From contig CAJXRQ010000004.1 of the NCBI GenBank assembly GCA_913060505.1, positions 1 through 64,000 of the forward strand: DNA of 64,000 nucleotides. The letters are read 5' to 3'. Below, in pieces: positions 44,768-64,000 of the stretch (position 1 is the first letter of the stretch; the number at the start of each line of letters is the position of its first letter). Under the pieces are notes generated by a model. That model ran no database searches. It was given only the letters and a program-made list of their open reading frames with translations, and was not told where the DNA came from. Source of the DNA: an uncultured Desulfovibrio sp. (GTDB lineage Bacteria > Desulfobacterota > Desulfovibrionia > Desulfovibrionales > Desulfovibrionaceae). The position numbers and the translations under genes are program-made.

Positions 44768-48400
<3,633 letters not shown>

Positions 48401-48781: not shown

Positions 48782-50896
48782 TTATTTACGGGTATTTTTT
48801 GTCGCTTCAGCCTGTGCCTGAATTGCCGTAATGGCGACAGTGTTGACGATATCCCGCACCGTACAACCTCGGGAAAGGTCGTTGACAGGTTTGTTCAACC
48901 CTTGCAGGATCGGGCCAATGGCAACGGAACCAGGCACTGACCGCTGCACCGCCTTGTATGTGTTGTTGCCCGTGTTGAGGTCTGGAAAGATAAAGACTGT
49001 GGCGTGCCCAGCAACAGGGCTGCCCGGCAGTTTGGTACTGGCAACATCCGGATCAATGGCCGCATCATATTGAAGTGGTCCCTCCAACGCGAGAGCGGGT
49101 GCTTTTTCCTTGGCTATCCTGGTTGCCAATATTACCTTTTCCACATCTTCGCCTGTTCCGGAATCTCCAGTGGAATAGGAAAGCATGGCGACTTTGGGAT
49201 CAATGCCAAAAATGCTGGCTGTTTCTGCGGAACTGATGGCAATTTCCGCCAATTGTTCGGCGTTGGGGTTCGGGTTGACCGCACAATCCCCATACACCAA
49301 TACTTTATCGTTCTGGCACATGAGAAAGACTGAGGAGACAATGGACGCCCCTGGTTTGGGCTTCACGAATTCGAAAGCCGGACGAATTGTTTGTGCCGTG
49401 GTCGTGATGGAACCGGAAACCATGCCGTCCGCGTGTCCTTTGTGTACCATCATGGTAGCGAAGTAAGTCGGGTCACTCATTCGGTCATGGGCCATATCAA
49501 GAGTGACACCTTTATGCTTTCTGGCTTCAAGGTATGTCTGCACATAGTCGTTGAAATATTCTGATTTGGTCGGCGCTATGATTTGAGCGTTACCAAGGTT
49601 GACCCCGATATCCGAAGCCTGTTTGTGAACTGTGTCAGGATCGCCCAGTAGAATGATGTCTGCCACGCCGCGTCTGATCAGAATGTCCGTGGCTTGCAGG
49701 ATGCGTTCGCTGGCACTTTCGGGCAGCACGATGCGTTGTGGCCTGACCTTGGCTTTTTCAATAAGCGTGTATTCGAACATGAGCGGCGTGATGCGGGTAG
49801 ATTCCGCAGAGACCATCCGAGAACGGAGTTCTTCCGTATTGATGCAGGATTCGAACAGCCCAAGGGCCGAGGCAATCTTCATGGGGTTTTCGGGATCAAT
49901 GGTTCCATGCAGGCCGTTGAGAATCAGTGCGCTTTTGTAAGTGTGCCCCGGAACGGAAAGTATTGGCACAGGAACGCCGGTCCACCCCTCGATAAGTCGG
50001 TGGACGTTAACAGGCGGCTGTAATCCTCCGGTCAGCACGATGCCGGAAATATCCGGATATGATGTGGACAATCGTGAAGCCAGACTGGCCAGCACGATGT
50101 CGGACCGATCGCCCGGTGTGACAATAAGACTGCCTTCTGCAATATATTCGAGGTAGTTGGTAATATGCATGGCTGCAACAAGGATGTCGTCAATCTGTGT
50201 ATCCAGCCTGCCATGTCCATACAAAACCGAAGCTCCCAGCCACTTTACCACGTCGTTGATAGTGGGATTTCCCAAGCTTTTTTCATCGGGAATAGCATAT
50301 ATTAATGGAGGGTGCTCGGAACGGACGGAGTTTCGGATGTCCGCTGTTATGGAATCCGGTACGTCATTGCCGGTCCGGTTGATGATCACAGCCATGACTT
50401 CAAGGCCTTTTTCTTCAAATGTTTCTATTGTACTCAGGCTGGATTCACGAATGTCTTCCGTATCCTTTTTCTGGCCGTTGACCACGGCAAGAACCGGACA
50501 ACCGAGATTGCTGACAATGGCTGCGTTCATTTCAAACTCGAGTGCAGCCTCTCCTCCGAGATAGTCGGTGCCTTCACAGAGAACGAAGTCATATTCCGAT
50601 TCCAGCTCCTTGAATTTGTTGAGCGTATTTTCTAGAAGCAAAGCCTGCTTTCCTTCGTTGAGCATCCGCTTGGCTTCACCCAGTTTGTACGCATACGTAT
50701 TTTCATACGGTATGGTTAATTTGAATTGCCGCAGGATAAGGTCTATGTCGTGGTCGCGGGTATCATTGTCGCTGATTATGGGACGAAAAATAGCGACCTT
50801 GCGGACGTGGGCCATAAGCAACTGCATGACGCCCAACACAACTGCCGATTTGCCGCTACGCGCTTCCGTAGCCGAGATGTAAATGCTTTTGGACAT
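48782..50896 (-). CDS. pta: Phosphate acetyltransferase
   Basis: A 704-residue long-form Pta converting acetyl-CoA and phosphate to acetyl-phosphate, the step after Por that leads to ATP through acetate kinase. Domains: N-terminal BioD-like P-loop region (SKSIYISATEARSGKSAVV in part, with GKS), central DRTGG region (GDRSDIVLASLASR), and the C-terminal catalytic PTA domain (RIVLPESASERIL, DGMVSGS, PDLNTGNNTYKAVQRS). The ATG at 50896 is chosen by homology length (E. coli Pta has 714 residues), but its ribosome site is poor. The frame stays open to an ATG at 51130 that overlaps rnfB and would add 78 low-complexity residues. Confidence 0.93.
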   Translation of the reverse strand: MSKSIYISATEARSGKSAVVLGVMQLLMAHVRKVAIFRPIISDNDTRDHDIDLILRQFKLTIPYENTYAYKLGEAKRMLNEGKQALLLENTLNKFKELESEYDFVLCEGTDYLGGEAALEFEMNAAIVSNLGCPVLAVVNGQKKDTEDIRESSLSTIETFEEKGLEVMAVIINRTGNDVPDSITADIRNSVRSEHPPLIYAIPDEKSLGNPTINDVVKWLGASVLYGHGRLDTQIDDILVAAMHITNYLEYIAEGSLIVTPGDRSDIVLASLASRLSTSYPDISGIVLTGGLQPPVNVHRLIEGWTGVPVPILSVPGHTYKSALILNGLHGTIDPENPMKIASALGLFESCINTEELRSRMVSAESTRITPLMFEYTLIEKAKVRPQRIVLPESASERILQATDILIRRGVADIILLGDPDTVHKQASDIGVNLGNAQIIAPTKSEYFNDYVQTYLEARKHKGVTLDMAHDRMSDPTYFATMMVHKGHADGMVSGSITTTAQTIRPAFEFVKPKPGASIVSSVFLMCQNDKVLVYGDCAVNPNPNAEQLAEIAISSAETASIFGIDPKVAMLSYSTGDSGTGEDVEKVILATRIAKEKAPALALEGPLQYDAAIDPDVASTKLPGSPVAGHATVFIFPDLNTGNNTYKAVQRSVPGSVAIGPILQGLNKPVNDLSRGCTVRDIVNTVAITAIQAQAEATKNTRK

Positions 50897-51102: not shown

Positions 51103-53202
51103 CTACCGTAGTTCTTGTTCGTTTTTCCATGGGAGTTCCATATCCCTGTCATAGCATGTCAGGCCACAATGCAGACAGCGATTTGCCTCTGTCAGGGCCT
51201 CGGGTTCGGAAAGCGCTCCTTCCACCTCTGCAAAGGTGCAGTTCCGATCGTCTCCGTGGCACATGTGCGGCATATTGGCTCGTTCAGAGTGCTGTACTCC
51301 CGGAACTTCCTTGAACAGGGTATAAGGTATGAGTTCTCGTTGCACCATGGGAGGGATCGGGATGTCTCCTTCCCGCTGCAAATAGTAATGTATAGATCGG
51401 GCAGCCTTTCGGCCGTCTCCTACTGCGGCAATGACCAGATCCGGTCCCGTGAATACGTCTCCGGCGGTAAATACACCAGGGACAACGGTTTGTAAGGTGT
51501 CTGGATCGGCAACAATGGTTTGCCAGCGAGTTGTTTCAACCGGGCATTTTTCGACGGTTTCATCGTAGAGGCAACTCAGGTCGGGTTTTTGACCAATGGC
51601 CGGAATAATGAAATCCGTTTCCATGAGTGTTTCCGAGCCTTCTATGGGCTCCGGGCGACGTCGGCCGGAATCATCGGGTTCTCCCAATTTCATCATCCTG
51701 AATTCCAGATGGGTGGCTTTGCCGTTTTCATCCCCAATGACACGGGTAGGGGCGGCCAGGAATTTGAATTGAACACCTTCTTCCTCGGCCCCGACGATTT
51801 CTTCGGGGTTGGCCGGCATTTCAGCTCTGGTCCGGCGGTAAAGCATGGTTACTTCCGCTCCGAGACGAACACAGGTCCGGGCGCAGTCTATGGCCGTATT
51901 ACCTCCGCCCACAACGATGACTTTGCGCCCAATGTCAATGGTTTGCCCTAATGCGTGCGCTGTAAGGAATTCAATGCCACCTAATACGCCTTCCAGATCT
52001 TCTCCTTCAGCGTACATGCCGCTGGCCTGCCAGGCTCCTAGCCCGAGAAAGACGGCTTCGAAACCATCCTCTTTCAAGGTGTTAAGGTCGTAGTCTCTGC
52101 CGAATTTCCTTTTGAGGTGAATGTCGACGCCGAGATCGAGGATTCCCTGAATTTCCCAATCCAGATCTTTTTTGGGGAGGCGATATTCGGGTATGCCGTA
52201 TCGCAGTTGACCTCCCAAGGCTGGCATGGCTTCAAAAATAGTTGGGTTGTGTCCTAGTCTGCGCAGGAAGTAGGCACAGGAAAGTCCGGCAGGCCCGCCG
52301 CCAATGACGGCCACTTTATGTCCGGTCTCTTTGGCACAGGGAATGGGCAGCCGATTGCCGCTATGCAGTTCCCGGTCCGCCACAAAACGTTTGAGCATAT
52401 TGATGCCGACGGGTGAATCCACATGGCCACGCCGACAGACTGATTCACATGGTCTTGGACATACTCTCCCGCAGACCATGAGCAACGGGTTGCGCTCGCG
52501 TATGGTGTTTACCGCGCCTTCATAATCCCCGGCTTTGATTTGTTCTATGTATCGGGGAATGTCGATTTGGCCGGGGCATTGCTGTCTGCATGGAGCAAGA
52601 CAGTCCGTAACTTCGTTCAGATGCAGCAAGCGGCTGGTTATGCCAACAATGGAGATGACGCCTCGCGGACAGGCCTCCACGCATTTGCCACAGGCCCGGC
52701 ATTCATTCGGGTCTACCACGGGCAATTTTTCAGGCCCCATATGAATGGCGTCGAACGGACAAACAGCAACACATGTTCCAAAGCCGAGGCATCCTTCCGG
52801 GCAGGATTTCGCACCGCCGTGCAACATGGCCGCGGCTTGGCAGTCCATGATTCCGGAGTATGCAAAGCGCTCTTCGGCTCGTTCGCCTCCTGTACAATCC
52901 CGAAAGGCGATTTCCGGCTCGCGTTCTTCTATGGTCTGTCCCATGAGTTCCGCTATAGCAGCCATGGCCTCCAGATCCGCTACTACGCATACGCTTGGGT
53001 TGGCTTTGCCAGCTGCAATGGCCGTGGCCGCGCCGGCGCATCCGGGATAGCCGCAACCGCCGCAATTTACACCGGGCAGAAGGTCTTCGACTTGTGCGAT
53101 GCGTGGGTCTTCCTTGACATAGAGCAACTTGGAGGCCACGGCGAGAATTGCGGCAGCTCCAAGTCCGAGACCAAACAGTGTTAGTCCTGATGTCGTAATC
53201 AT
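51103..53202 (-). CDS. rnfB: RnfB fused to a GltD-like NAD(P)H/FAD oxidoreductase module
   Basis: A 699-residue protein. Residues 1-185 are RnfB: N-terminal helix, the CGGCGYPGC...C cluster motif (47-72), and two ferredoxin-type clusters (134-148 and 168-178). From about 195 the protein becomes a glutamate-synthase small-subunit/NfnB-like module: Fe-S cysteine set CLAPCRQQCPGQ and VCGRVCPRPCESVC, FAD site VAVIGGGPAGLSCAYFL (from about 297), a second nucleotide site VIVVGGGNTAIDC, and PAIGQKPD plus GVFTAGDVF near the end. A C-terminal CLHCGLTC pair follows. Typical RnfB has about 200-330 residues, so the fusion is the striking point. It implies an NAD(P)H site on RnfB facing the cytoplasm. Last rnf gene; pta follows. 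Confidence 0.93.
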   Translation of the reverse strand: MITTSGLTLFGLGLGAAAILAVASKLLYVKEDPRIAQVEDLLPGVNCGGCGYPGCAGAATAIAAGKANPSVCVVADLEAMAAIAELMGQTIEEREPEIAFRDCTGGERAEERFAYSGIMDCQAAAMLHGGAKSCPEGCLGFGTCVAVCPFDAIHMGPEKLPVVDPNECRACGKCVEACPRGVISIVGITSRLLHLNEVTDCLAPCRQQCPGQIDIPRYIEQIKAGDYEGAVNTIRERNPLLMVCGRVCPRPCESVCRRGHVDSPVGINMLKRFVADRELHSGNRLPIPCAKETGHKVAVIGGGPAGLSCAYFLRRLGHNPTIFEAMPALGGQLRYGIPEYRLPKKDLDWEIQGILDLGVDIHLKRKFGRDYDLNTLKEDGFEAVFLGLGAWQASGMYAEGEDLEGVLGGIEFLTAHALGQTIDIGRKVIVVGGGNTAIDCARTCVRLGAEVTMLYRRTRAEMPANPEEIVGAEEEGVQFKFLAAPTRVIGDENGKATHLEFRMMKLGEPDDSGRRRPEPIEGSETLMETDFIIPAIGQKPDLSCLYDETVEKCPVETTRWQTIVADPDTLQTVVPGVFTAGDVFTGPDLVIAAVGDGRKAARSIHYYLQREGDIPIPPMVQRELIPYTLFKEVPGVQHSERANMPHMCHGDDRNCTFAEVEGALSEPEALTEANRCLHCGLTCYDRDMELPWKNEQELR

Positions 53203-53216
53203 ATCGGGTAATCTCC

Positions 53217-53792
53217 CTAGATCATCCCTTTGAAAGCGAAGAACGCCAAAGACATGAGTCCTGCCATGACCAATCCTACAGGTGTTCCCCGCATGGCACG
53301 GGGAACTCTGCGAATTTCAAGTCTTTCGCGTATGCCAGCCAACACCACCAGTGCGATCATGAACCCGATACCTGAAGCAGCTGCAAAGGCGACCGATTTG
53401 AGAAGAGGGAATTCCTTACGTTGGCAAATAAGGGCAATACCCATGACTGCGCAGTTAGTCGTGATCAGAGGAAGAAAAATGCCCAGGGATTTATAGAGAG
53501 GAGGTACCATTTTTTTCAGGAACATTTCTACGAATTGCACCAGTGAGGCAATGACCAGAATGAAGGCCAACGTTTGAAGAAAGTCCAATCCCAGAGGAGA
53601 AAGCAGGTATTCCTGAACCAGCCAGGTGATAGCTGTGGCCATGACCGCCACGAATACGACGGCTCCTCCCATTCCGAGGGCTACACTGGTTTCCTTGGAA
53701 GTGCCGATGAACGGGCAGTTTCCAAGGTATTGAGCCAGAACGATGTTATTGACGAATATGGCCGCAATGAACAGCAGGAAATATTCTTGCAT
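53217..53792 (-). CDS. rnfA: Rnf complex membrane subunit A
   Basis: A 191-residue protein with six helices. The two family cysteines that bind the intramembrane 2Fe-2S cluster with RnfE are present: YLGNCPFIG (C26) and ITTNCAVMG. Pseudo-symmetric to RnfE/NqrD. The ATG at 53792 follows AAGGAGGAACC; the longer frame overlaps rnfE and is not used. It lies 14 bp before rnfB. Confidence 0.94.
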   Translation of the reverse strand: MQEYFLLFIAAIFVNNIVLAQYLGNCPFIGTSKETSVALGMGGAVVFVAVMATAITWLVQEYLLSPLGLDFLQTLAFILVIASLVQFVEMFLKKMVPPLYKSLGIFLPLITTNCAVMGIALICQRKEFPLLKSVAFAAASGIGFMIALVVLAGIRERLEIRRVPRAMRGTPVGLVMAGLMSLAFFAFKGMI

Positions 53793-53806
53793 TGGCTGGT
53801 TCCTCC

Positions 53807-54475
53807 TTATCGTCCGCCGCAGACGCCGCAGGATCCACAATCATGAGTCGGCCCGTCCACAGGGGCCAGTCCCTTGCGCTTGCGTTGCAGGTTGGTAAAG
53901 AAATTCATCAGGGCAAGCAGGATGCCGAGGGTAACAAAAGCTCCTGGTGCAGCAGCCATGAAGGAAAGTGGTTCGAATCCATCCCAGACGACCGTGTGGC
54001 CGAAGAGTTGCCCGTGTCCGAGCACTTCCCGCAATCCGCCAAGAAATGTTAACGACATGGTAAAACCCATGCCCATTCCCAACCCGTCGGCAATGGCCAG
54101 AAGCGGGGGATTTTTGGAGGCGAAGGCTTCGGCTCGACCGAGAATGATGCAGTTGACGACAATAAGCGGCACGAAAATGCCCAATTGCTGATACAGGGGA
54201 AAAGCGTATGCCTGCATGAGGAGTTCCACCGCAACAACCAGTGAGGCCGCTATGACGATGAAACAAGCGATGCGTACTTTGGCAGGGATGATTTTTCGTA
54301 CCAGTGAAACCAGCAGGTTGGAGAGTGTGAGTACGAAGATGACCGCCATGCCCATGCCAAAGCCGTTCTCTGCCGTGGATGTTACGGCCAGAACCGGGCA
54401 CAGCCCGAGAACCAGTTTGAACGGTGGCAGGTCCTTCCAAAGCCCTTTGGAGAATTCCTTCCAGAGTCTGCTCAT
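53807..54475 (-). CDS. rnfE: Rnf complex membrane subunit E
   Basis: A 222-residue protein with six helices. Family cysteines appear in LGLCPVLAVTSTAENGFGM and VNCIILGRAEAF. An N-terminal SRLWKEFSKGLWKD stretch is typical. The C terminus ends in a cysteine-rich DCGSCGVCGG tail, which is not a core RnfE feature and could bind metal. GGAGG sits 5 nt before the ATG. Confidence 0.93.
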   Translation of the reverse strand: MSRLWKEFSKGLWKDLPPFKLVLGLCPVLAVTSTAENGFGMGMAVIFVLTLSNLLVSLVRKIIPAKVRIACFIVIAASLVVAVELLMQAYAFPLYQQLGIFVPLIVVNCIILGRAEAFASKNPPLLAIADGLGMGMGFTMSLTFLGGLREVLGHGQLFGHTVVWDGFEPLSFMAAAPGAFVTLGILLALMNFFTNLQRKRKGLAPVDGPTHDCGSCGVCGGR

Positions 54476-54486
54476 CTCGGCCTCCG

Positions 54487-55062
54487 TTATTGCCAGGCGG
54501 TTGTCAGTTTGCTTCTCAGTTCATTATATATTTTGACTGCTTTTTGTACTGCTGCGACAGTTCCAGTGGAGGATATCGTTGCCCCTGCAACCGCGTTGAC
54601 TTCGCCTCCGCCCGATTTGAGCCTGGCCTGTTCGGCCGTCATGCCATGGAATTGCGAGGTGAAGCCGTGTTTGCTGACTTTGCTTCCTACGCCGGGCGTT
54701 TCCTTCATTGTGGTTATGCCGATACCACTCAGATTGCCGGATTCAGGATCGAAGCCGACCATGACGCCGATGTCACCGCCATACCCTTGCCCCGAGGTTT
54801 CAAAAGCCAGTCCTACCAGAGAGCCTCCCTTGAGGGCCGGGAAAATGGTTACCTGTTGGTCTTGAACCGTGAAAATCTTTCTATCCCTGATGGGATTGTT
54901 GTCGTGCGCTGCAAGTACCTGCTCAATGGCCGGGGCCTGTACGTAGCTCAGGATTTGTTCCTCGATGCGCGGGGCTGTAACGCTTTTCAAAGCTGCCAGA
55001 CTGACGCCGGATATGCCGCAGATGACTGAAAGCACGACGATCATTTTTATCATTTCCCGCAT
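54487..55062 (-). CDS. rnfG: Rnf complex periplasmic flavoprotein subunit G
   Basis: A 191-residue protein: one N-terminal helix (about 5-25) and a periplasmic FMN-binding domain. The covalent FMN motif is recognisable as NAVAGATISS (157-164; canonical S/T-G-A-T), with the attachment threonine at 162. An ETPGVGSKV segment is also conserved in the family. GGGAGGAACTAAGTC precedes the ATG, 3 bp after rnfD. Confidence 0.93.
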   Translation of the reverse strand: MREMIKMIVVLSVICGISGVSLAALKSVTAPRIEEQILSYVQAPAIEQVLAAHDNNPIRDRKIFTVQDQQVTIFPALKGGSLVGLAFETSGQGYGGDIGVMVGFDPESGNLSGIGITTMKETPGVGSKVSKHGFTSQFHGMTAEQARLKSGGGEVNAVAGATISSTGTVAAVQKAVKIYNELRSKLTTAWQ

Positions 55063-55065
55063 GAC

Positions 55066-56013
55066 TTAGTTCCTCCCAAAGGGTTTGGGCTTGATTCTGT
55101 CCAGCAGGGGGGATGTCAGGTTGGCCAACAGGATGGCATAGGGAACGCCGTCCGGATATACTCCGTATACGCGAATGATGATCACCAGTACTCCTGCCAG
55201 CAAACCGTAAAGCAGGGCCGGTATTTTGCGCATCGGGGAACTGGAACTGTCCGTCGCCAAAAAGAAAGCTCCAAATATAATGCTTCCTGTCAGCAGGTGG
55301 AACATGGCCGGAGCGTATTTTTGCGGATCTGCGGCATGGAATATTCCTGCAGTGATGAGCACCCCGGCGAGCATGCCCACGGGAATGGCCACTTTAATGT
55401 GCTTGCGCATGGTCAGGAATATGCCGCCGATGAAGAGAGCTCCGGTCTGAATAGCTCCAAGCCCTCCCAACTGCCTGCCGACGAGCAGATCATTTAGCGA
55501 GAATCCCGCAATTGATTGTGCTCCGAAGTGCTTGAGTTGTGATAGCGGGTAGTTCAATTCCGAAGTCAGCATTGCCGCGTCAATGTCCATATGGCTTGCC
55601 CACGACAAGCTACATACGGCCCAACCGACTAATGGCGCGCATAATGGGGAGCCTCCCAAACCGCCAAACATCATTTTACCCAAGACGATGCTGGTTGTGC
55701 TTCCAAAAACGACCAGCCACCATGGTGCGGATGCTGGCAGCAGGAAAGCGAAACCCAGACCCACCGTAAAGGCGTGCATGTCGTCCACCTGGGAAGTGCG
55801 TCCCATGACTATATCCGATATGAATTCGGCAATAACGGCGGTGGCCGTCGCCAAGGTCATGACACGCAGGGCGTCCATGCCGAAGTGGTAAACCGCCAAT
55901 GCTGCGGCGGGGAGCATTGCCAGCAGGATGGCGCGCATACGTTTTTTTACCGTCTTGCCACAATGGGCAAAAGGTGGGGGCGAAACGGTCAGGGTCGGGA
56001 TCAATGGTTTCAT
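55066..56013 (-). CDS. rnfD: Rnf complex membrane subunit D
   Basis: A 315-residue protein with about nine helices. Family landmarks: FGGLGGSPLCAPLVGWA and FHLLTGSIIFGAFFLATDSSSSPM, and the closing VYPDGVPYAILLANLTSPLLDR. In characterised RnfD/NqrB a covalent FMN is attached to the threonine of an S/T-G-A-T motif before the DLxxG segment; here that position reads KHFGAQSIAG (161-170), with no threonine. Covalent flavin at the usual site is therefore unlikely. The gene starts 2 bp after rnfC. Confidence 0.92.
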   Translation of the reverse strand: MKPLIPTLTVSPPPFAHCGKTVKKRMRAILLAMLPAAALAVYHFGMDALRVMTLATATAVIAEFISDIVMGRTSQVDDMHAFTVGLGFAFLLPASAPWWLVVFGSTTSIVLGKMMFGGLGGSPLCAPLVGWAVCSLSWASHMDIDAAMLTSELNYPLSQLKHFGAQSIAGFSLNDLLVGRQLGGLGAIQTGALFIGGIFLTMRKHIKVAIPVGMLAGVLITAGIFHAADPQKYAPAMFHLLTGSIIFGAFFLATDSSSSPMRKIPALLYGLLAGVLVIIIRVYGVYPDGVPYAILLANLTSPLLDRIKPKPFGRN

Positions 56014-56014
56014 T

Positions 56015-57133
56015 TTATCCTTCTCCCTTGTCTATGGGGTCGCAAACGTCCGCTTGGGTCAGATGCTGTTTTGCCAGTCGGATATATTGCAGGAGCGGCC
56101 GACGGGAAATGCAGAAAAATCCGCACATGCCACACTCCATGCATGCGTCGATTCCATGCATGCGGCATTTTTCGTACATGCGAAATTCCGCGTAGCCAGA
56201 AATCGTGGCCGGATCAATGCGGGCGGGACATACGGAAATACACTCGCCGCAACCGATGCAGGGAGAATCCTCCACTGGCGGATATTGTCCCTTGGGCACG
56301 ATGAATAGCCCGTATGTATCTTTGGATACGCCTTGCAGCAGGGAGTGGGCCGCCTGACCGCGCATTAGTCCTCCCAACACCACGGCGTCGCCGTCGTTAA
56401 CGGTTTGATTGGCCGCTTTGAGAACCTCGCCGACAGAGGTTCCCACTGTGACCACAAAGTCGGTGTCGTTGCAGGTTACAACCGTTTTATCGCATGGAAG
56501 TCCTGCATCCATGATTATGCCAATTTCAAAAAGTTGTCCTACGGACAGAACCACGGCGTCATCCGGATTTTCTTTCCCTGTAACGGCTTTTGCCACCAGC
56601 GGATCCAGTCCGTTGGGATAACCGCTTTCGATGAACACGGATTCACAGCCTTCAATCGTTTGCGGCGCTCCGTTTTCCAAAGCCAGAACCGTACGGCTGG
56701 GGGCAAGCAGGGATTGTGCTGTGGATATGCCCAATTGAATTATTTGGGAAAACTCGTTCAGCATATGGGAAAAGGCCGTTACTCCGGGGTCCGGTTCCAC
56801 ACCGTTGACAATGAGTGTCTGGACGGAGCCAAGCGGGATGTTTGCTCCCATTTCATTGAGGGCAGTTTGCAGCGCCTCTCCGGAGAGCCGGTTCAACTCT
56901 TTTGGAGTCGGTTGGGAAGTCTCGTCGGCCCTGATACAGACGTAAGTGGGATGCACTTCCGTAACTGTCCCCGAAATCGGGACATAATGTCCGCCGCCGA
57001 TGTGTATTCCCCGGGCTATGCGTTGGCCGCACTTGATTTCCGGGCGATGGCAGGAGAGGGGAACCCGCACGTTTTCCGGTTCTGGGATGACTGTCAACGG
57101 TCCTTCGCGCACAATGGATTCAAACAATTTCAT
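56015..57133 (-). CDS. rnfC: Rnf complex subunit C, divergent short form
   Basis: A 372-residue protein. An N-terminal barrel (GIHIGGGHYVPISGTVTEV) and a C-terminal pair of 4Fe-4S motifs (CIGCGECISVCPARIDP and CMECGMCGFFCIS followed by LLQYIRLAK) identify it as RnfC. The usual glycine-rich FMN/NADH segment (GxxGxGGAxFPTxxK) is replaced by SGEALQTALNEMGANIPLG (84-102), and the NGAECEPY motif by NGVEPDPG. Length is also below the usual 430-700. So this RnfC may not bind NADH itself. The start at 57133 has GGAGA 7 nt ahead; the frame upstream overlaps the cytochrome gene. Confidence 0.9.
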   Translation of the reverse strand: MKLFESIVREGPLTVIPEPENVRVPLSCHRPEIKCGQRIARGIHIGGGHYVPISGTVTEVHPTYVCIRADETSQPTPKELNRLSGEALQTALNEMGANIPLGSVQTLIVNGVEPDPGVTAFSHMLNEFSQIIQLGISTAQSLLAPSRTVLALENGAPQTIEGCESVFIESGYPNGLDPLVAKAVTGKENPDDAVVLSVGQLFEIGIIMDAGLPCDKTVVTCNDTDFVVTVGTSVGEVLKAANQTVNDGDAVVLGGLMRGQAAHSLLQGVSKDTYGLFIVPKGQYPPVEDSPCIGCGECISVCPARIDPATISGYAEFRMYEKCRMHGIDACMECGMCGFFCISRRPLLQYIRLAKQHLTQADVCDPIDKGEG

Positions 57134-57146
57134 GATCAGGTCTCCA

Positions 57147-57896
57147 TCAGCGTATGTGGCACTTGAAACACGAATTTTCCCCAAAGGGCCCCTTGCCTTT
57201 ACGCTCGTGGCAATCCATGCATTGGTCGTGGAATGCATTCATGCGATTAAGAACGAGATCCTTGGTATGCTCGTTATGGCATTGGCCGCAGGATGAGAAG
57301 TCTCCGTCGTATTGACTCATATCCACAGCTTCGTGGCAGGACGTACAACTTGTCAGTCCCTGTTCGAACATGTCCTCGTGGCAACCCTGGCAGCGTTTGT
57401 GTGCAGCGGAGGCCAGGCCGGGCATATCGTCATCGCCCTTGTCTTCATGGCAGGATTTGCATTGTCCGGGCTCGGGTTCGATGTCTTCTCCATGGTGGCA
57501 GGCCTGGCAATTGTCTTCAGCAAATTCGATATGTTCATCATGGTCGAATATGAGATGCTCATATTCGATGTGATGACACTGGATACAGTACTTTTTGTCC
57601 GGGAATGAAGCGATGTGGTTGTCCACATAATGCTCGTCAAAAGCGACGGGATGGCAAGAGCCGCAGGCAAGAGCCTTGTCTTCGGCGTGCGTCATCTCGT
57701 GGTGGCAGTCCGCACAGGGAATCTTGTAGTTCCGATGGTGCACAAGGTGCGAAAAGATTACCTTTCCGCCATTGTTATGGAACAGAATACGGACCGGCAT
57801 TTCGGTTTTGGCTTGTGTTCTGGTGTATCCGACCATGGACACGGCAAGAAGAATGACGACAGCAACCATGACCGGGGCGTATCGTTTGTTGAGCAT
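57147..57896 (-). CDS. Rnf-linked decahaem cytochrome c
   Basis: A 249-residue periplasmic cytochrome with a signal peptide or anchor (about 1-29). Ten CxxCH motifs are present, from CADCH near residue 61 to CFKCH at the end. It heads the rnf operon, 13 bp ahead of rnfC, as known for Desulfovibrio Rnf clusters, where a decahaem cytochrome is thought to exchange electrons between Rnf and the periplasmic c3 network. It can thus link ferredoxin/NADH electrons with periplasmic redox partners. Confidence 0.92.
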   Translation of the reverse strand: MLNKRYAPVMVAVVILLAVSMVGYTRTQAKTEMPVRILFHNNGGKVIFSHLVHHRNYKIPCADCHHEMTHAEDKALACGSCHPVAFDEHYVDNHIASFPDKKYCIQCHHIEYEHLIFDHDEHIEFAEDNCQACHHGEDIEPEPGQCKSCHEDKGDDDMPGLASAAHKRCQGCHEDMFEQGLTSCTSCHEAVDMSQYDGDFSSCGQCHNEHTKDLVLNRMNAFHDQCMDCHERKGKGPFGENSCFKCHIR

Positions 57897-58002: not shown

Positions 58003-59547
58003 TTACTGAGGCATGACGGCCCAAGTGGGCAGCACATGCAGATCAATGCCCCACAGTACCGGTAACAGGTATGTGGTGAAGGCCGTGATCAGAACCGCGC
58101 CTATGATGTTCAACCATAGCCCGGCACTGGCCATCTGTTTGATAGTCACGCAACCGGACCCGAATATGACTGCGTTCGGAGGTGTTGCGACAGGAAGCAT
58201 GAAAGCGAAGGATGCCGCCACGCAGGCTCCCACGATGGTCGCAAAGGGATGGACTCCCATGGCGATTGCCGCAGCTCCCATAATGGGTACCAACAGCGTC
58301 GCGGTTGCCGTGTTGGAGGTTATTTCCGTGAGGAAGATGGTTATCACCACCACCGCGCCCACGAACACCAGAATGCTGGCACCTTCAAGTGCACCCAGTT
58401 GAGCCGCGATATAGGCGGCCAACCCCGTCTTGGCAAAGCCGTTAGCAATGGCAAGACCACCACCGAAAAGCAGAATTACATCCCACGGTATCTTAACGGC
58501 GGTTTTCCAGTCCAGCAGGAATTCACCTTTTTTGAAGTCTGAGGGGATACAGAAAAGCAGGAGGGCTCCCAAAATGCCTATTGTGGCGTCTGCGACCATG
58601 CCGAAATGAGGCATGACGGCTTTGACCAAAACAGCTTTTTTCAGGAAACCGCGGGCCAGCCAGAAACCGGCCACGAAACATCCCGTGATCACGATGCGTT
58701 TTTCTTCCTTTTTCATGGGGCCGAGCTTTTCAAGCTCACGGTCGATGATTGCCCGTCCTCCCGCCAGCTCCATGTTGCCGGTAGAGAAGAGTATTTTTGT
58801 CAGCAAAAGCCAGGAGATACTAATCATGATCACGGAAAGAGGCACGCCAAACATCATCCACTGGGCAAACCCGATTTGAACGCCGAACATTTTTTCGACC
58901 ATGCCGACCATGACCGTGTTCGGAGGGGTGCCGATGATAGTTGCCACGCCACCCATTGAGGCTGCATACGCGATGCCGAGCATCAAGCCCTTGCCGAAGT
59001 TGATACTCTGGTTTCCTTTTTCAGAAGCATGTGTGCGCAAAGCATCGGCATCAAAGCCTGTTGCCTGCTGCACCACGGCGAGCCCGATGGGAACCATCAT
59101 CATGGTCGTTGCAGTATTGGAAACCCACATGGACAGAAAGGCGGTGGCAATCATGAATCCAAGGGTCATTTTTGCAGGACTGGTACCTACAGCCCGGATG
59201 GTGTGAATAGCCACGCGCCGGTGCAGATTCCATCGTTCCATGGTTACGGCAATGAAAAAACCTCCCATGAACAGGTAGATAAGATGGTTGGCGTATGGCG
59301 CAGTAGCTGCATTGGATTTCATGACTCCGAGAAGCGGAAACAGGGCGATGGGTAAAAGGGATGTGGCCGGAATGGGAATTGCCTCCGAGATCCACCAGGT
59401 AGCCATCAGCACAGTGACTGCGGCAACTTTCCAAGCTGCAGGCTTCATTCCCTCTGGAACGGGGATTAGAAGCATGAGGATGAAGAGTGCCGGTCCCAAG
59501 AAAAAGCCGATTTTTTTGCCGTTTGCGGCATTGGCGTTCGAGCTCAT
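58003..59547 (-). CDS. DASS-family sodium:dicarboxylate transporter 2
   Basis: A 514-residue carrier highly similar over its full length to the one at 30021-31559 (shared WWISEAIPIPATS, MWVSNTATTMMMVP, TEITSNTATATLLVP and FGSGCVTIKQM segments). Main differences are a 12-residue charged insertion (RTHASEKGNQSIN) in a central loop and a longer N terminus. The start at 59547 has AGAGAGGA ahead; the in-frame ATG at 59586 has none. It follows the malic enzyme gene with a hairpin between. No sigma54 promoter is seen here, unlike paralogue 1, which suggests constitutive or operon-level expression with the fumarate/malate genes. Confidence 0.92.
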   Translation of the reverse strand: MSSNANAANGKKIGFFLGPALFILMLLIPVPEGMKPAAWKVAAVTVLMATWWISEAIPIPATSLLPIALFPLLGVMKSNAATAPYANHLIYLFMGGFFIAVTMERWNLHRRVAIHTIRAVGTSPAKMTLGFMIATAFLSMWVSNTATTMMMVPIGLAVVQQATGFDADALRTHASEKGNQSINFGKGLMLGIAYAASMGGVATIIGTPPNTVMVGMVEKMFGVQIGFAQWMMFGVPLSVIMISISWLLLTKILFSTGNMELAGGRAIIDRELEKLGPMKKEEKRIVITGCFVAGFWLARGFLKKAVLVKAVMPHFGMVADATIGILGALLLFCIPSDFKKGEFLLDWKTAVKIPWDVILLFGGGLAIANGFAKTGLAAYIAAQLGALEGASILVFVGAVVVITIFLTEITSNTATATLLVPIMGAAAIAMGVHPFATIVGACVAASFAFMLPVATPPNAVIFGSGCVTIKQMASAGLWLNIIGAVLITAFTTYLLPVLWGIDLHVLPTWAVMPQ

Positions 59548-59641
59548 AATTCCTCTCTCTTTGAGCTTGCGCAGCAGTTGCTGCATCCTAGAACCTGTAA
59601 CCCTACCGTCAGTGTTTCTGGTCGCTTTCCACCCCCTATGC

Positions 59642-59685: not shown

Positions 59686-61005
59686 CTAGAAGTCGAGGTT
59701 ATACGTGGAAAGGAAATCTCCCACGCGTTTTTTGGAAGCACCCAGACGTTCCCGCAGCTCCACGCGGTATGCGTCCAGATCCAGTTTCTTGCGAGCTACG
59801 CCGGTTTCCATGGCGGCTTTGGCCACGGCCACGGAAACGAATTCGATGAGGCGCAGGTCGGGTGCTTTCGGGATGATGTAGTCCATGCCGAATTCCAGCT
59901 TGTCCACGCCATAGGCTTCGCACACGTAATCCGGGGCCGGCTCTTTGGCCAGGGCCGCAAGGGCCTGTGCCGCTGCCAGCTTCATTTCTTCATTGATTGC
60001 GGTGGCGTTGCAGTCCAGAGCTCCGCGGAAGATGAAGGGGAAACCGAGAACGTTGTTAACCTGGTTCGGGTAGTCGGAACGCCCGGTTCCCATGATGGCA
60101 TCGGGGCGGGCTTCCTTGGCGTCGTTGTAGGTGATTTCCGGATCTGGGTTCGCGCAAGCGAAAATGATCGGATTGTCTGCCATGGATTTGACCATGTCCT
60201 TGGAAACCATGTCCTTGACCGAAAGGCCGAGGAAACAATCGGCGCCAGCCATGGCTTCGGCCAAGGAACCGTATTCCTTGTCCGTGGCATATGCCTGTTT
60301 TGTCGGACTCAGGTCGGTACGGCTCTTGTTGATGTGGCCGCGTGAGTCGAACATGGCAATGTTTTCGGGTTTTACACCCATTCCCTTGTACAGGTTGGTG
60401 CAGGCAATGGCACCCGCGCCGGCGCCGGAAACGACCACGCGCATGTTTTCGACTTTCTTGCCGGAAATCTCCAGAGCGTTCATCATACCGGCAGCCGTAA
60501 CAATAGCGGTGCCATGCTGGTCGTCGTGGAAGACCGGAATATTCATTTCCTTTTTCAGGGTCTCTTCGATGTAGAAGCATTCCGGTGCTTTGATATCCTC
60601 AAGGTTGATGCCGCCGAAGGTCGGCTCCAGAGCCTTGACAATCTCAATGATTTTGTCCGGATCCTTGGCATCAAGGTTGATGTCATAAACATCGACATCG
60701 CCGAAGACCTTGAAAAGAACACCTTTGCCTTCCATGACCGGTTTGCCGGCTTCGGCACCGATGTTGCCGAGGCCCAGAACAGCGGAACCGTTGGATACGA
60801 CGGCAACGAGGTTCCCACGACCGGTGTATTTGTAGGAAAGTTCCTTATCGCCATGAATTGCCATGCACGCTTCGGCAACGCCCGGGCTGTACGCCATGGA
60901 CAGGTGTTTCTGGGTTGCGCAAGGCTTGACCGGCACGACTTCGACTTTGCCCGGGCGCCCTTCAGAATGGTAATCCAATGCTTCTTGCTTGGTAAACAGA
61001 GCCAT
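59686..61005 (-). CDS. Malic enzyme (malate to pyruvate, NAD(P)-dependent)
   Basis: A 439-residue decarboxylating malate dehydrogenase. Landmarks: [35 protein letters not shown] (in parts), [43 protein letters not shown] (in parts; metal-binding Glu-Asp), the [16 protein letters not shown] dinucleotide fold and [10 protein letters not shown]. Bacterial short form without the phosphotransacetylase-like tail of MaeB. Start at 61005 because GGAGG lies between it and the in-frame ATG at 61017. Links the C4 pool to pyruvate and hence to Por. Confidence 0.95.
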
Positions 61006-61038
61006 TTGATCCTCCAATAGAATCGGTTTCAGTGGTTA

Positions 61039-61593
61039 TCAGAGACCGGCCGCTTTGCGGTCCGGCTGAGCATACAATTCGCCGCCATGGGCGTCGTTGA
61101 TCACCAGCAGGGGAAAATCCTCCACTGTCAACTTGCGGATGGCTTCCGGTCCGAGGTCATCGAAAGCAATGACTTCGGCTTCCGTAATGCACTTGGAAAG
61201 AAGTGCACCAGCGCCGCCAGTGGCGCCGAAATAAACAGCAATATTGTCTTTGAGAGCTTGTTTCACTTCGTCATTTCGCTTGCCTTTGCCTACGCTGGCT
61301 TTTTGGCCGAGCTTGTGCAGCCGTGGGGCATACGTGTCCATGCGGTAGCTGGTGGTGGGACCGGCTGAACCGATGGGACGGCCCGGAGGAGCCGGGCTGG
61401 GGCCGACATAATAAATCACGGAGCCTTGCAGTTCGAAAGGCAGTTCCTTGCCTTCGTCCAACAGGTCGCACAGCCGCTTGTGCGCTGCATCGCGAGCCGT
61501 GTAGATATGTCCGGTGAGCTTGACCACGTCTCCCGCTTTCAGCGGCTTCAGGTCTTCATCCGTGAGCGGTGTGTTCAGCGAATATTCAGCCAT
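61039..61593 (-). CDS. Class I fumarase, beta subunit
   Basis: A 184-residue swivelling C-terminal-type domain of the Fe-S fumarase (fumarate to malate). Family segments: LTGHIYTARDAAHKRL, YVGPSPAPPGRPIGSAGPTTSYRMD (in parts) and FGATGGAGALLSKCI. In two-subunit class I hydrolyases the alpha chain holds the cluster. The ATG shares one base with the alpha stop (TAATG), with GAGGAGG ahead, so the two are coupled. Tartrate dehydratase is an alternative activity, but the location between frdB and malic enzyme favours fumarase. Confidence 0.93.
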   Translation of the reverse strand: MAEYSLNTPLTDEDLKPLKAGDVVKLTGHIYTARDAAHKRLCDLLDEGKELPFELQGSVIYYVGPSPAPPGRPIGSAGPTTSYRMDTYAPRLHKLGQKASVGKGKRNDEVKQALKDNIAVYFGATGGAGALLSKCITEAEVIAFDDLGPEAIRKLTVEDFPLLVINDAHGGELYAQPDRKAAGL

Positions 61594-62432
61594 TACAATT
61601 CCACCTCCTCGTGCCTTTGGGAGTGACACTGGACGTTGACCGCCAGCGGCAAACTGGCGATATGGCAGGGTTCAAGAGCTATTTTTACACTCAGGACCGT
61701 GGTTTTTCCTCCAAGGCCCATGGGGCCGATGCCCAACTTGTTGAGCGCTTCTTCAAGTTCCTTTTCCAGTTCCGCTATTTTCGGGTCCGGGTGCGTGTCG
61801 TCCAGGCGGCGCAGCAGAGCCTTTTTGGCAATGCGCGCTGAATGATCGAATGTTCCTCCTACTCCGATGCCGACGATTGTCGGAGGACAGGGGTTCGGTC
61901 CGGCTTCCGCAATGCGTTCAATGACAAACTTCTTGATGCCTTCCCATCCTTGGGCCGGGGCAAGCATGGTGACGCGGCTCATGTTTTCTGCACCGCCACC
62001 CTTGGCCATGTATGCGATTTTGAGCTTGTCTCCAGGGACAATGTCGAAGTGAATAATGGCCGGGGTGTTGTCGCCCGTATTTTTGCGGGTTAGTGGATCG
62101 CATGCGGATTTGCGAAGGTAGCCTTCACCGTATCCTTTGCGAACGCCTTTGTTGATAGCGTCCTTGACGTTGCCGCCTTCGACGGTGAGGTCTTCGCCAA
62201 TTTCAACGAAGAAGACCGCCAGCCCCGTGTCCTGACACAGAGGCAGTTTCGTTTTCATGGCCAGATCAGCGTTTTCCAACAGTTGCCGGAGCACTTCCTT
62301 GGCCGAAGCAGAGTCTTCGTTCGCCATGGCCTGTTCGAATTTGGCCCGAACATCGTCCGGAAGCTCGGTGTTGGCCCGAACACACATGGTGGCAACCGCG
62401 TCGATAATGTCTTTTGCTTGGATAGTACGCAT
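61593..62432 (-). CDS. Class I fumarase, alpha subunit
   Basis: A 279-residue catalytic subunit carrying the labile 4Fe-4S cluster. Expected cysteines are seen in LPLCQDTGLAVFF, GPNPCPPTIVGIGVGG and AVNVQCHSQRH. RKNTGDNTPAIIHFDIVPGD is a further conserved stretch. Its ATG is 2 bp behind frdB. With frd, fumarase and malic enzyme in one run, the cell can convert succinate/fumarate/malate to pyruvate or run the chain in reverse to fumarate respiration. Confidence 0.94.
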   Translation of the reverse strand: MRTIQAKDIIDAVATMCVRANTELPDDVRAKFEQAMANEDSASAKEVLRQLLENADLAMKTKLPLCQDTGLAVFFVEIGEDLTVEGGNVKDAINKGVRKGYGEGYLRKSACDPLTRKNTGDNTPAIIHFDIVPGDKLKIAYMAKGGGAENMSRVTMLAPAQGWEGIKKFVIERIAEAGPNPCPPTIVGIGVGGTFDHSARIAKKALLRRLDDTHPDPKIAELEKELEEALNKLGIGPMGLGGKTTVLSVKIALEPCHIASLPLAVNVQCHSQRHEEVEL

Positions 62433-62434
62433 GG

Positions 62435-63172
62435 CTACTTCCTGAATATTTCCTTGATTGCTGTAATGCCCATCTTACGGCGCAGGAACCCGAGCTGGTT
62501 TTGCAGGGGGAGGCCTTTGGGGCAGACGTCTTCGCAGGCCAAAAGGCCCATGCAGCCGAACACGCCGTTGTCATTGCCGATAATTTCAAAGTATTGCTTG
62601 TCGGTCCGCTCATCTCGAGGGTCGACCACGAAGCGGGCGATGCGGTTCAGTGCTGCCGCACCCATGAAGTCTTCGCGCAGTCGAGCCGTACCGCAGGCGG
62701 AAACGCAACAGCCGCATTCGATGCAGCGTTCCAGCTCATAGATTTGCTCGGCCACGTCATTGTTCATACGCTCTTCTTCCTTGGTGGGGTCGAAGGTCTT
62801 GGACGTGTGAACCCAAGATTCCGTTTTCTCGTACATTTCACGGAACCAAACGCCGGTATCCACGGCCAGGTCGCCGATAAGTTTGAACACCGGAAGAGGG
62901 TGCAGGACTATTTTGCTGGGTTGGTCCTTGGTCTTGGTCTGGCAGGCTAGGCCTGGGCGACCGTTGATGACCATGGCGCATGCTCCGCAGATGCCAGCCC
63001 GGCAGCAGAAATCGAAAATAAGGCTCGGATCCTGTTCTTCACGAATCCTGTTCAATGCAATGAACAGGGTCATGTTCTGGGTCTCTTCGAGCCGGAAAGT
63101 CTGCATCCGGGGCTGGTCCCCTTCTTTTTGAGGGTTGTACCGGAATATTTCGAATTGAAGTTCTCTACCCAT
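62435..63172 (-). CDS. frdB: Fumarate reductase/succinate dehydrogenase iron-sulfur subunit
   Basis: A 245-residue protein. N-terminal ferredoxin domain with CCRAGICGACAMVINGRPGLAC (in parts; 2Fe-2S), and the C-terminal domain with CIECGCCVSACG (4Fe-4S) and CMGLLACEDVCP / KGLPL (3Fe-4S). Connects the FrdA flavin to the membrane haem/quinone subunit, which is probably encoded upstream, outside the window. 13 bp after frdA. Confidence 0.95.
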   Translation of the reverse strand: MGRELQFEIFRYNPQKEGDQPRMQTFRLEETQNMTLFIALNRIREEQDPSLIFDFCCRAGICGACAMVINGRPGLACQTKTKDQPSKIVLHPLPVFKLIGDLAVDTGVWFREMYEKTESWVHTSKTFDPTKEEERMNNDVAEQIYELERCIECGCCVSACGTARLREDFMGAAALNRIARFVVDPRDERTDKQYFEIIGNDNGVFGCMGLLACEDVCPKGLPLQNQLGFLRRKMGITAIKEIFRK

Positions 63173-63185
63173 GATGAGTTCCTCT

Positions 63186-64000
63186 CTACTTGTCCTTCTT
63201 GATCATGCGTTCCTTGACGAATTGCTCATCGGCCGGAATGATCGTGCCGCCGCCGTAGCCGCGTTCTCCCGGAGGAATTTCGAAAACCGGCGAGGCATCT
63301 TCATATTGGAGATCCGGCAGGGTCGCGTCTTCTTTCCAGTAAGCCAGAGTGCGGGTCAGCCATTCGGCGTCATTTCGTTCCGGGAAGTCGACCCTGTTAT
63401 GGGAACCTCGTGATTCCGTACGGTCCAGAGCTCCCTTGGCGATCATCAGAGCCAGTTTGACCTGTCCCTTGATCTTGAGTGCTGCCGCCAGTTCATGGTT
63501 GACGCCCAATCCATCCGATTTAAGTCCGATGTGCCCTGCGCGATCCAGAACTTTCTGCAAGGTTTCCACGGTCTCTTCCAGATCCGGTCCGTTGCGGAAT
63601 ACGAAGCATCCCTTCATGAGTGCTTCCTGCATGTCATTGCGCACATCGTAGACATTTTCCGATCCATTGCGGCCGGATATGAGATCCTGGATGCGCTGCT
63701 CCTGCTTCTTATATTCCTGAGTCACTATGTCTGTCTTGATTTTTGTTTCGTATCCTTCCAGAAACTCGACGATTTTTGCTCCGATGATGCCGCCGGCAAC
63801 AACGGTTTCCGCCAACGAGTTTCCGCCCAGCCTGTTGAAGCCGTGCATATCCCAGCAAGCGACTTCACCGGCGGAGAACAGTCCCTTGAGCCCGTATACC
63901 GCACCGTCCTTGTTGGTGCGTATGCCAGCCATGGTATAGTGCTGGGTGGGCCGTACTGGAATGAGTTCCGTGCGGGGATCAACACCCAGGAAGTGGTGAC
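63186..64000 (-). CDS. frdA: Fumarate reductase flavoprotein subunit, C-terminal part
   Basis: Partial: the gene continues beyond the right edge. The frame is open from the stop at 63186 to base 64000 and encodes HFLGVDPRTELIPVRPTQHYTM (shown in part), the substrate/capping region, then LFSAGEVACWDMHGFNRLGGNSL and the helical domain with RTESRGSHNRVDFPERNDAEW, including the arginine residues of the active site. These match FrdA/SdhA. The FAD-binding N terminus is not in the window. With frdB it forms the membrane-bound complex interconverting fumarate and succinate. Confidence 0.94.
   Translation of the reverse strand, partial: HHFLGVDPRTELIPVRPTQHYTMAGIRTNKDGAVYGLKGLFSAGEVACWDMHGFNRLGGNSLAETVVAGGIIGAKIVEFLEGYETKIKTDIVTQEYKKQEQRIQDLISGRNGSENVYDVRNDMQEALMKGCFVFRNGPDLEETVETLQKVLDRAGHIGLKSDGLGVNHELAAALKIKGQVKLALMIAKGALDRTESRGSHNRVDFPERNDAEWLTRTLAYWKEDATLPDLQYEDASPVFEIPPGERGYGGGTIIPADEQFVKERMIKKDK

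Follow-up and report, generated by a model that had tools for sequence, protein, structure and literature searches.

The rnf operon and its subunits

The DNA analysed here (the window) comprises 64,000 nucleotides of an uncultured Desulfovibrio sp. (assembly GCA_913060505.1, contig CAJXRQ010000004.1, positions 1 to 64,000), whose genome is a draft that is 81% complete. On its minus strand it carries an operon for an Rnf complex in which RnfB is fused to a nucleotide-binding module and RnfC has lost the glycine-rich loop of its flavin mononucleotide (FMN) and NADH site. Read along that strand from 57896 to 51103, a decaheme cytochrome gene is followed by rnfC-D-G-E-A-B, the order given for A. 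woodii (PMC4841214), and then by pta and the gene for pyruvate:ferredoxin oxidoreductase (PFOR). The cytochrome c gene (57147-57896), in which ten heme motifs were counted, heads the rnf genes directly upstream of rnfC (56015-57133, 372 residues); then come rnfD (55066-56013, 315 residues, TIGR01946 221.8 bits), rnfG (54487-55062, NF045876 284.4 bits), rnfE (53807-54475), rnfA (53217-53792, TIGR01943 256.5 bits) and the rnfB fusion gene (51103-53202, 699 residues). RnfG keeps its GATxS flavin-attachment motif, and RnfA and RnfE each keep both of their cluster cysteines.

The rnfC frame is readable as 407 residues (56015-57238); the ATG at 57133 was taken as the start because overlap with the upstream cytochrome gene is thereby avoided, and this fits the 372 residues stated in the first-pass annotation, an earlier reading of the sequence made without database searches. 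RnfC scored below the cut-offs of both TIGR01945 (NCBIfam rnfC; 141.7 against 245.95 bits) and Pfam Complex1_51K (27.0 against 31.2 bits). In the alignment with intact RnfCs (e.g., that of locus L088, which reads GLGGATFP and NGAEWEPY) the glycine-rich FMN/NADH segment is deleted, so the site is not intact, and NGVEPDPG (56783-56806, minus strand) stands where NGAECEPY is expected. Both the altered site and this residue change had been recognised by the first-pass annotation; the stretch that it offered as the altered Gly-loop, SGEALQTALNEMGANIPLG, was a mis-registered motif, because the loop itself is missing from the protein. Judged from its sequence, the RnfC of the window cannot hold a normal FMN/NADH site. 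Both CxxCxxCxxxC [4Fe-4S] motifs are present, and the AlphaFold model (predicted local distance difference test, pLDDT, 88.8) found A. woodii RnfC as its best Foldseek match (template modelling score, TM, 0.81), followed by other RnfCs and then NqrA. No SLBB-domain family was listed for this RnfC at E values up to 0.001; the alignment of its model with A. woodii RnfC still spans 423 columns.

The N-terminal part of the fusion protein (residues 1-190, 52633-53202) is a genuine RnfB with a membrane anchor, a [4Fe-4S] domain and a two-cluster ferredoxin domain (TIGR01944 73.7 bits, cut-off 68.7; Pfam FeS, PF04060, 43.4 bits). Residues 199-687 (51142-52608) form a module of Fer4_20 and flavin adenine dinucleotide (FAD)/NADP(H) domains with a C-terminal CxxCxxxC segment, which resembles PRK12771 (495.8 bits, slightly under the cut-off of 516) and is also matched by Pyr_redox_2 and Fer4_20. 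It carries the FAD motif GGGPAG at residues 301-306 (52285-52302; G301/G303/G306) and a second nucleotide site, GGGNTA...YRRTR, at residues 432-459 (51826-51909; GGGNTA at 432-437, YRR at 455-457), all on the minus strand. The extension of about 500 residues of GltD/NfnB-like sequence with Fe-S cysteines and both motifs, as first described from the open reading frames, is confirmed. The mean pLDDT of the RnfB model was only 63.5, and the model served solely for the fold match of the module. Solved relatives of the module are NfnABC, StnABC, NfnI, glutamate synthase and DPD. The GltD-like modules of NfnB, StnC and NfnABC share its Fer4_20, FAD and NADP(H) Rossmann folds (37-42% identity across the first eight Foldseek rows), and the module of the window differs from them in being fused to RnfB. 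The cysteine-bearing segment is N-terminal in NfnL, unlike its C-terminal place in the window and in the Stn and NfnABC chains (the match of the NfnL segment is weak, -0.2 bits). We infer an NADP(H)-type second site, because the relatives of the module (NfnB, StnC, DPD, GltD) are NADP(H) enzymes and YRR is kept; the label NAD(H)-type in the first-pass annotation does not agree with this.

Probable loss of the return branch of the electron path

Canonical Rnf is described as conducting electrons along a U-shaped path, i.e., RnfB, RnfA/E, the FMN of RnfG, the FMN of RnfD, riboflavin, RnfC and NAD (PMC11889175). The cofactor residues along this path were compared in 130 loci with an aligned RnfC; these loci are related, many belonging to one clade, and were picked by similarity or by rnfC score. 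Both rnfC and rnfD were present in 132 loci, from which L190 and L194 (RnfC fragments) were dropped, and overlong open reading frames were cut to their last 470 residues for alignment. Among 20 high-scoring loci L139 (cut short) was left out, and L063 and L088 complete the 21 loci whose Gly-loop is intact. In the other 109 loci, the window included, the loop is not intact (dead RnfC in the following).

The threonine of RnfD to which FMN is covalently attached was found in all 19 intact-RnfC rows with a letter at that column and in only 10 of the 101 dead-RnfC rows; in the window the residue is Tyr155 (55549-55551, minus strand). The likely riboflavin ligands are partly kept in the RnfD of the window (Asp255 is present and the Asn is replaced by Cys125, if these correspond to D249 and N123 of A. 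woodii). The outward half of the path is better preserved: both cluster cysteines of RnfA and both of RnfE were kept in every dead-RnfC row with a letter, and the RnfG motif GATxS/T occurred in 96 of the 99 dead-RnfC rows with RnfG (the three misses read GAS), compared with 15 of 18 intact rows (the others have AAT or AST); in 3 of 19 intact rows Ala replaces one RnfE cysteine. The return branch thus seems to be interrupted twice, at the RnfC Gly-loop and at the RnfD threonine, while the outward branch is intact. The source genome has a lone listed ApbE-domain match (G000:C4:68815-69636), situated in a 746-codon frame about 5 kb past the end of the window; ApbE attaches covalent flavins.

Distribution of the fusion and order of events

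Full-length relatives of the fused RnfB (72-87% identity) were found in 13 genomes of the same genus, and in each of the 25 same-genus genomes, the source genome included, one or more fused matches of nearly full length reached an identity of 47% or above. Such conservation among relatives argues that the fusion is not a chance product. Within the order it occurs in genera g1, g16, g19 and g24, and phylum-wide a near-full-length fused RnfB was present in at least 32 of 297 genomes (the source genome excluded) from many families. A first set of genomes, in which full-length fusions were confined to the genus, had suggested a genus-specific fusion; this is ruled out by its presence in three other genera of the family and in many families of the phylum. 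All but two (G135, G285) of these 32 genomes also had an RnfC match below 330 bits, compared with at least 490 bits for RnfCs confirmed as intact. Named holders among the matches listed are Desulfosarcina alkanivorans, Desulfocarbo indianensis, Desulfopila aestuarii and Salidesulfovibrio brasiliensis (in the last the open frame found has only 450 residues).

The fusion was seen solely together with a dead RnfC. In the 21 loci with an intact loop RnfB was unfused in 20 and out of view in one (L088), and the 109 dead-RnfC loci had a fused RnfB in 58, an unfused one in 33 and none in view in 18. Of the unfused dead-RnfC loci 31 are clean (L158 is truncated at the end of its contig, and L171 has an RnfB-like gene on the opposite strand), and 57 of the 58 fused genes share the strand of rnfC (the exception, L128, lies on the opposite strand, 8.4 kb from rnfC). 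Because the rows are related, the association of the fusion with a dead RnfC (58 of 58 against none of the 20 intact-RnfC operons with RnfB in view) is close to one event rather than 58.

A tree of RnfA, RnfE and RnfD was computed from 121 loci (9 of the 130 were short of genes; L115 and L185, and L119 and L189, are identical) by a quick search without a mixture model; an earlier tree of 52 rows likewise came from a quick search, and its outermost row, L063, had a long branch. In the 121-row tree 99 dead-RnfC rows formed one clade (Shimodaira-Hasegawa-like approximate likelihood ratio test, SH-aLRT, 100), within which 11 unfused rows split off (SH-aLRT 97) and every fused row fell into the remaining 88 (SH-aLRT 89). 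Nested among the fused rows (SH-aLRT 98) was a clade of 20, in which RnfB is unfused in 18 rows and not in view in 2. The tree thus favours an order in which the RnfC site was lost first, the fusion followed and a single clade later shed the module (the node that matters most for this order has SH-aLRT 89), although independent gains of the module may have occurred instead of a single fusion and one loss. Two dead RnfCs, L167 and L168 (G260, G200), stood inside the intact clade with the RnfD threonine kept, a separate loss.

These results bear on the proposal of the first-pass annotation that the NAD(P)H site had moved from RnfC to RnfB. What stands of it is that the RnfC site is gone, that RnfB has a nucleotide-binding module, and that no fused RnfB accompanies an intact RnfC in the 130 loci; a single transfer event is not supported in view of the 31 clean unfused dead-RnfC loci and the tree, and since the tree favours a loss of RnfC function before the fusion, a strict reading as a move is needless. 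That RnfC lost its site recently and in connection with the fusion is likewise rejected, on the strength of the unfused dead-RnfC operons and the tree. The RnfD change, the cytochrome, the malate cluster and the earlier report of the design are absent from the first-pass annotation.

Two types of the fused module

Fused RnfBs longer than 640 residues (91 proteins) were divided by a regular expression (YRR[TS] followed by EMPA) into type A (49) and type B (42), so that the conservation of Y/R/R in type A holds by definition. All 49 type A proteins also have GGG at 432-434 and Lys271. In type B the second Rossmann motif is decayed to a varying degree; note that the type is mixed, R456 being kept in 23 of the 42 proteins, and therefore not every type B protein need have lost the site. 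The FAD glycines G301/G303/G306 and the 14 cysteines checked in the RnfB N-terminal part were present in all 91 proteins, as were the cysteines of the module except for Cys201 (kept in 30 of 49 type A proteins by alignment) and one C-terminal gap. Within the same-order set all 14 type A cases had ten hemes and all 10 type B cases five; phylum-wide, this tie of heme count to module type fails. The source genome has a second rnf set, split over the ends of contigs C27 and C30 (L033:738-2849 and L034), with a five-heme cytochrome and a fused type B RnfB whose second motif is degraded (GDTNTA, no YRR).

The malate-to-acetate gene cluster

The rnf operon lies within a cluster on one strand that runs from fumarate reductase through fumarase, malic enzyme, a transporter of the DASS family, the cytochrome and rnf to pta and PFOR. 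Upstream of the cytochrome gene are genes for the DASS-family anion transporter, of dicarboxylate type (58003-59586, TIGR00785 278.9 bits), a malic enzyme (59686-61017; best model the NADP-dependent PRK12861 with 534 bits, under the cut-off of 1178 of this 764-position model), the fumarase C-terminal-domain subunit (61039-61629, PF05683) and alpha subunit (61593-62432, PF05681), the Fe-S subunit of a fumarate reductase/succinate dehydrogenase (62435-63172, PF13085 and PF13183) and the C-terminal part of the fumarate reductase flavoprotein subunit (63186-64000, PF02910), which exits the window and was met again in L257, which reaches beyond it. Downstream of rnfB are the genes for phosphate acetyltransferase (48782-50896, PRK05632 919 bits) and PFOR (44768-48307; PF01855, PF01558, PF10371, PF17147). 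Going by these assignments, malate oxidation by the cluster ought to produce both NADPH and reduced ferredoxin, the pair of donors open to RnfB.

Malic enzyme and the DASS transporter adjoin the cytochrome and rnf genes in 11 more window-type loci (G016, G020, G014, G010, G006, G024, G021, G002, G013, G007 and G130, the last with no pta match). No malate-cluster neighbours were seen in ten loci whose decaheme Rnf is of another type (L036, L037, L041, L048, L055, L061, L070, L071, L089, L173), although the upstream flank is shorter than 2 kb in L055, L061, L070, L071 and L089, too short for the farther genes. In D. alaskensis G20 the genes for malic enzyme (Dde_1253) and fumarase (Dde_1254-1255) lie near NfnAB-2 (Dde_1250-1251) (PMC4215793), whereas their counterparts in the window adjoin rnf; on malate and fumarate Rnf was reported to be important in G20, and Nfn-2 mildly so (PMC4215793). 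No description of the malate cluster, or of the loss of the RnfD threonine, was found in the open-access literature searched.

Possible electron paths through the complex

We favour, with a confidence evenly poised between acceptance and doubt, an ion pump that passes electrons from ferredoxin and NADPH via RnfG to periplasmic cytochrome c. Two carriers would supply RnfB with electrons, reduced ferredoxin at its ferredoxin domain and NADPH, rather than NADH, at the fused FAD module; the electrons would cross the iron-sulfur site of RnfA/E to the flavin of RnfG and leave for the decaheme cytochrome c in the periplasm, ion export being driven on the way. RnfC would be retained as an iron-sulfur and structural subunit that has lost its reaction with NAD(H), and the pump would serve the oxidation of C4-dicarboxylates, with NADPH coming from malic enzyme and reduced ferredoxin from PFOR. 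The periplasm beyond RnfG is the simplest exit because the return branch seems to be broken and a cytochrome gene heads the operon. An exit of this type, from RnfG to a cytochrome, has been proposed for the Rnf of Methanosarcina acetivorans (PMC4023990), and attempts to detect an ion gradient coupled to electron transfer from ferredoxin to NAD in vesicles of G20, a strain whose RnfC is presumably dead as well, are reported as unsuccessful (PMC4841214).

Several observations weigh against such a pump. All 8 cluster cysteines of RnfC are kept in 109 of 109 dead-RnfC loci, which is odd if RnfC carries no electrons, and 10 dead-RnfC rows retain the RnfD threonine (L167 and L168, of separate origin, among them). 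In 13 of the 58 fused operons (9 of type A, 4 of type B) the surroundings of rnfC show no gene that has at least four heme motifs, and the dhcA phenotype in G20 is described as weak (PMC4215793, PMC4841214). With ferredoxin and NADPH sites on one chain, electrons could short-circuit without pumping, and the source genome holds an NfnA-like gene beside a GltD-like gene. Among the window-type loci L035 lacks the malate cluster, G008 is cut off upstream, and G011:C4 and G019 fall outside the comparison.

The cysteines of RnfC would be explained by an altered U-shaped path, in which electrons run from ferredoxin through RnfB, RnfA/E, RnfG, RnfD and the RnfC clusters to the iron-sulfur clusters and FAD of the module, which would make the complex a ferredoxin:NADP+ oxidoreductase that pumps and whose nucleotide site has moved beside RnfC. 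This arrangement would avoid the short circuit, it fits the occurrence of the fusion only alongside a dead RnfC, and A. woodii RnfC is reported to bind RnfB by a C-terminal helix (PMC11889175). We nevertheless regard it as unlikely, though the most serious competitor, for the RnfD threonine is missing in the window and in 91 of the 101 dead-RnfC rows, which breaks the link between RnfG and RnfC, and unfused dead-RnfC operons keep the RnfC clusters as well. The module might also be no more than a ferredoxin:NADP+ reductase anchored in the membrane, which evens out the two pools but does not power the pump; pumping would then depend on the flow from ferredoxin to cytochrome only. One chain and one iron-sulfur relay do hold both the ferredoxin and the nucleotide site, and for 37 proteins with the module no rnfC lay in the stretch examined (some are at contig ends, others seem to be solitary, and four are soluble proteins). 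The fusion to RnfB and the conserved place in the operon suggest, on the other side, electrons bound for the membrane, and the pentaheme-type paralogues dropped the nucleotide motif yet kept the fusion; we consider a plain reductase rather improbable.

Flavin-based bifurcation or confurcation at the FAD of the module, as the first-pass annotation had suggested, would be in keeping with an NfnB-like fold in which clusters flank the FAD, and with Arg341 (Arg in 91 of 91 fused proteins) at the position of StnC R239, which has been equated with NfnB R201 (PMC10482914). This arginine is common to bifurcating and non-bifurcating forms, however, and the best three solved sequence matches are chains of NfnABC and StnABC; the GltD-like FAD of StnC is described as non-bifurcating, with K170 at the neighbouring cluster (PMC10482914). 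Lys271 of the window corresponds to K170, and a lysine occupies this position in all 49 type A proteins and in 31 of the 42 of type B. In Pyrococcus NfnL (P. furiosus) the column has Glu, which we take to be a cluster ligand. Neither the operon nor the cluster shows an NfnA-type gene (a PF10418 search of the source genome listed three places, all on other contigs, one of which, C8:44619, is the one beside the GltD-like gene), and the HydB/NuoF-like FMN loop of RnfC is gone. The sequence features thus make bifurcation by the module unlikely, and we accord it a very low probability. That the operon is a degenerate or annotation-level oddity of no functional meaning is scarcely credible: the RnfC sequences of the clade are divergent and the window comes from a draft genome, but the conservation of open reading frames, cysteines and synteny, with relatives across the phylum, largely refutes it, and proteomes of Desulfococcus multivorans are reported to show all six Rnf1 and five Rnf2 subunits under the conditions tested (PMC5109826).

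Comparison with known Rnf complexes

The complex of the window has RnfA/E/G/D homology in common with canonical Rnf (A. woodii, C. tetanomorphum, A. vinelandii), an RnfC of like fold, the RnfG motif, the RnfA/E cysteines and the eight RnfC cysteines; it differs in the absence of the RnfC loop and of NGAECEPY, in the absence of the RnfD threonine, and in the FAD/NADP(H) module added to RnfB. It is a real and conserved Rnf variant which is partly known already. The combination of a fused RnfB with a dead RnfC was reported in 2016 as the Desulfobacula toluolica Tol2-type Rnf, and D. multivorans was stated to carry an A. woodii-type Rnf1 beside a Tol2-type Rnf2 (PMC5109826), so that the design is not new but known in outline. 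The window matches two traits of this type, an RnfB of about 700 residues with a nucleotide-binding module (here 699 residues, PRK12771-like, with FAD and NADP motifs) and an RnfC without the NADH-ubiquinone oxidoreductase site. For a third trait, an RnfC that lacks the soluble ligand-binding (SLBB) domain, the family listing and the long alignment of the model with A. woodii RnfC point in different directions. The window also falls into the same 88-row clade as L096, the presumed Tol2-type locus of genome G287, which is probably D. multivorans: an intact RnfC near 3.10 Mb and a dead RnfC with the fusion near 3.11-3.12 Mb fit the layout of that species. The two operons differ in RnfC length (372 residues in the window, 431 in the G287 locus) and in the heme motifs of the cytochrome (ten and five), and the window operon lies in a malate-to-acetate cluster, unlike the Tol2-type rnf2 of D. 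multivorans.

A 2025 paper placed Rnf2 in the core genome of Desulfobacteraceae and ascribed Rnf1 to Desulfovibrionaceae (PMC11887813), and a 2024 reading held that many Desulfovibrionaceae have lost rnfB and have an FAD-dependent oxidoreductase instead (PMC11434368); in the fused operons examined here that oxidoreductase contains RnfB, which corrects this reading. The Rnf of M. acetivorans likewise has a multiheme cytochrome c, co-transcribed with rnf, and is described as not interacting with NAD or NADP; the available part of that account makes no mention of an NfnB-like fusion (PMC4023990). Used as a control, M. acetivorans RnfC exceeded the TIGR01945 cut-off, unlike the RnfC of the window. 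In the related pump Na+-NQR (Na+-translocating NADH:quinone oxidoreductase) the RnfC counterpart NqrA is reported to have lost its redox cofactors and an NADH-oxidising FAD subunit to have been recruited (PMC11889175); there NqrF takes the role of RnfB, whereas the window keeps RnfB and extends it by a different FAD module.

More tentatively, and with distinctly less than even confidence, the whole dead-RnfC clade may consist of one-way pumps that use only the outward half of the path, from ferredoxin (and from NADPH too where RnfB is fused) to cytochromes in the periplasm, rather than of ferredoxin:NAD+ pumps. The joint loss of the RnfC nucleotide site and of the covalent FMN of RnfD would be their signature, and many sulfate reducers annotated with a ferredoxin:NAD+ Rnf would have this form instead. 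If the Rnf of the clade cannot reduce NAD+, models of energy yield that include a ferredoxin:NAD+ Rnf need to be changed for many Desulfobacterota. How electrons of NADPH and NADH are routed into sulfate reduction has been called a 'long-standing mystery' (PMC4215793). The locus allows a direct test, in that the two reduced carriers of the malate cluster match the two entries of RnfB, a paralogue that has lost the motif is present in the same genome, and unfused relatives exist.

Module-bearing proteins outside rnf operons

The four soluble proteins (595-601 residues; L046:10509-12314, L125:8690-10477, L126:8477-10276, L127:2495-4294) combine an RnfB-like ferredoxin domain with a GltD-like module that is 51-52% identical, and their loci also have a gene resembling a 2-oxoacid:ferredoxin oxidoreductase. 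Such proteins could have been the donors of the fusion or, equally, could be shortened fused RnfBs, because their ferredoxin domain is RnfB-like. Two seemingly solitary genes for type B fused RnfBs (L100:6559-10564, L121:2477-6627) stand beside NuoF-like proteins with an intact GRGGAGFP loop, neighbours that might supply an NADH site.

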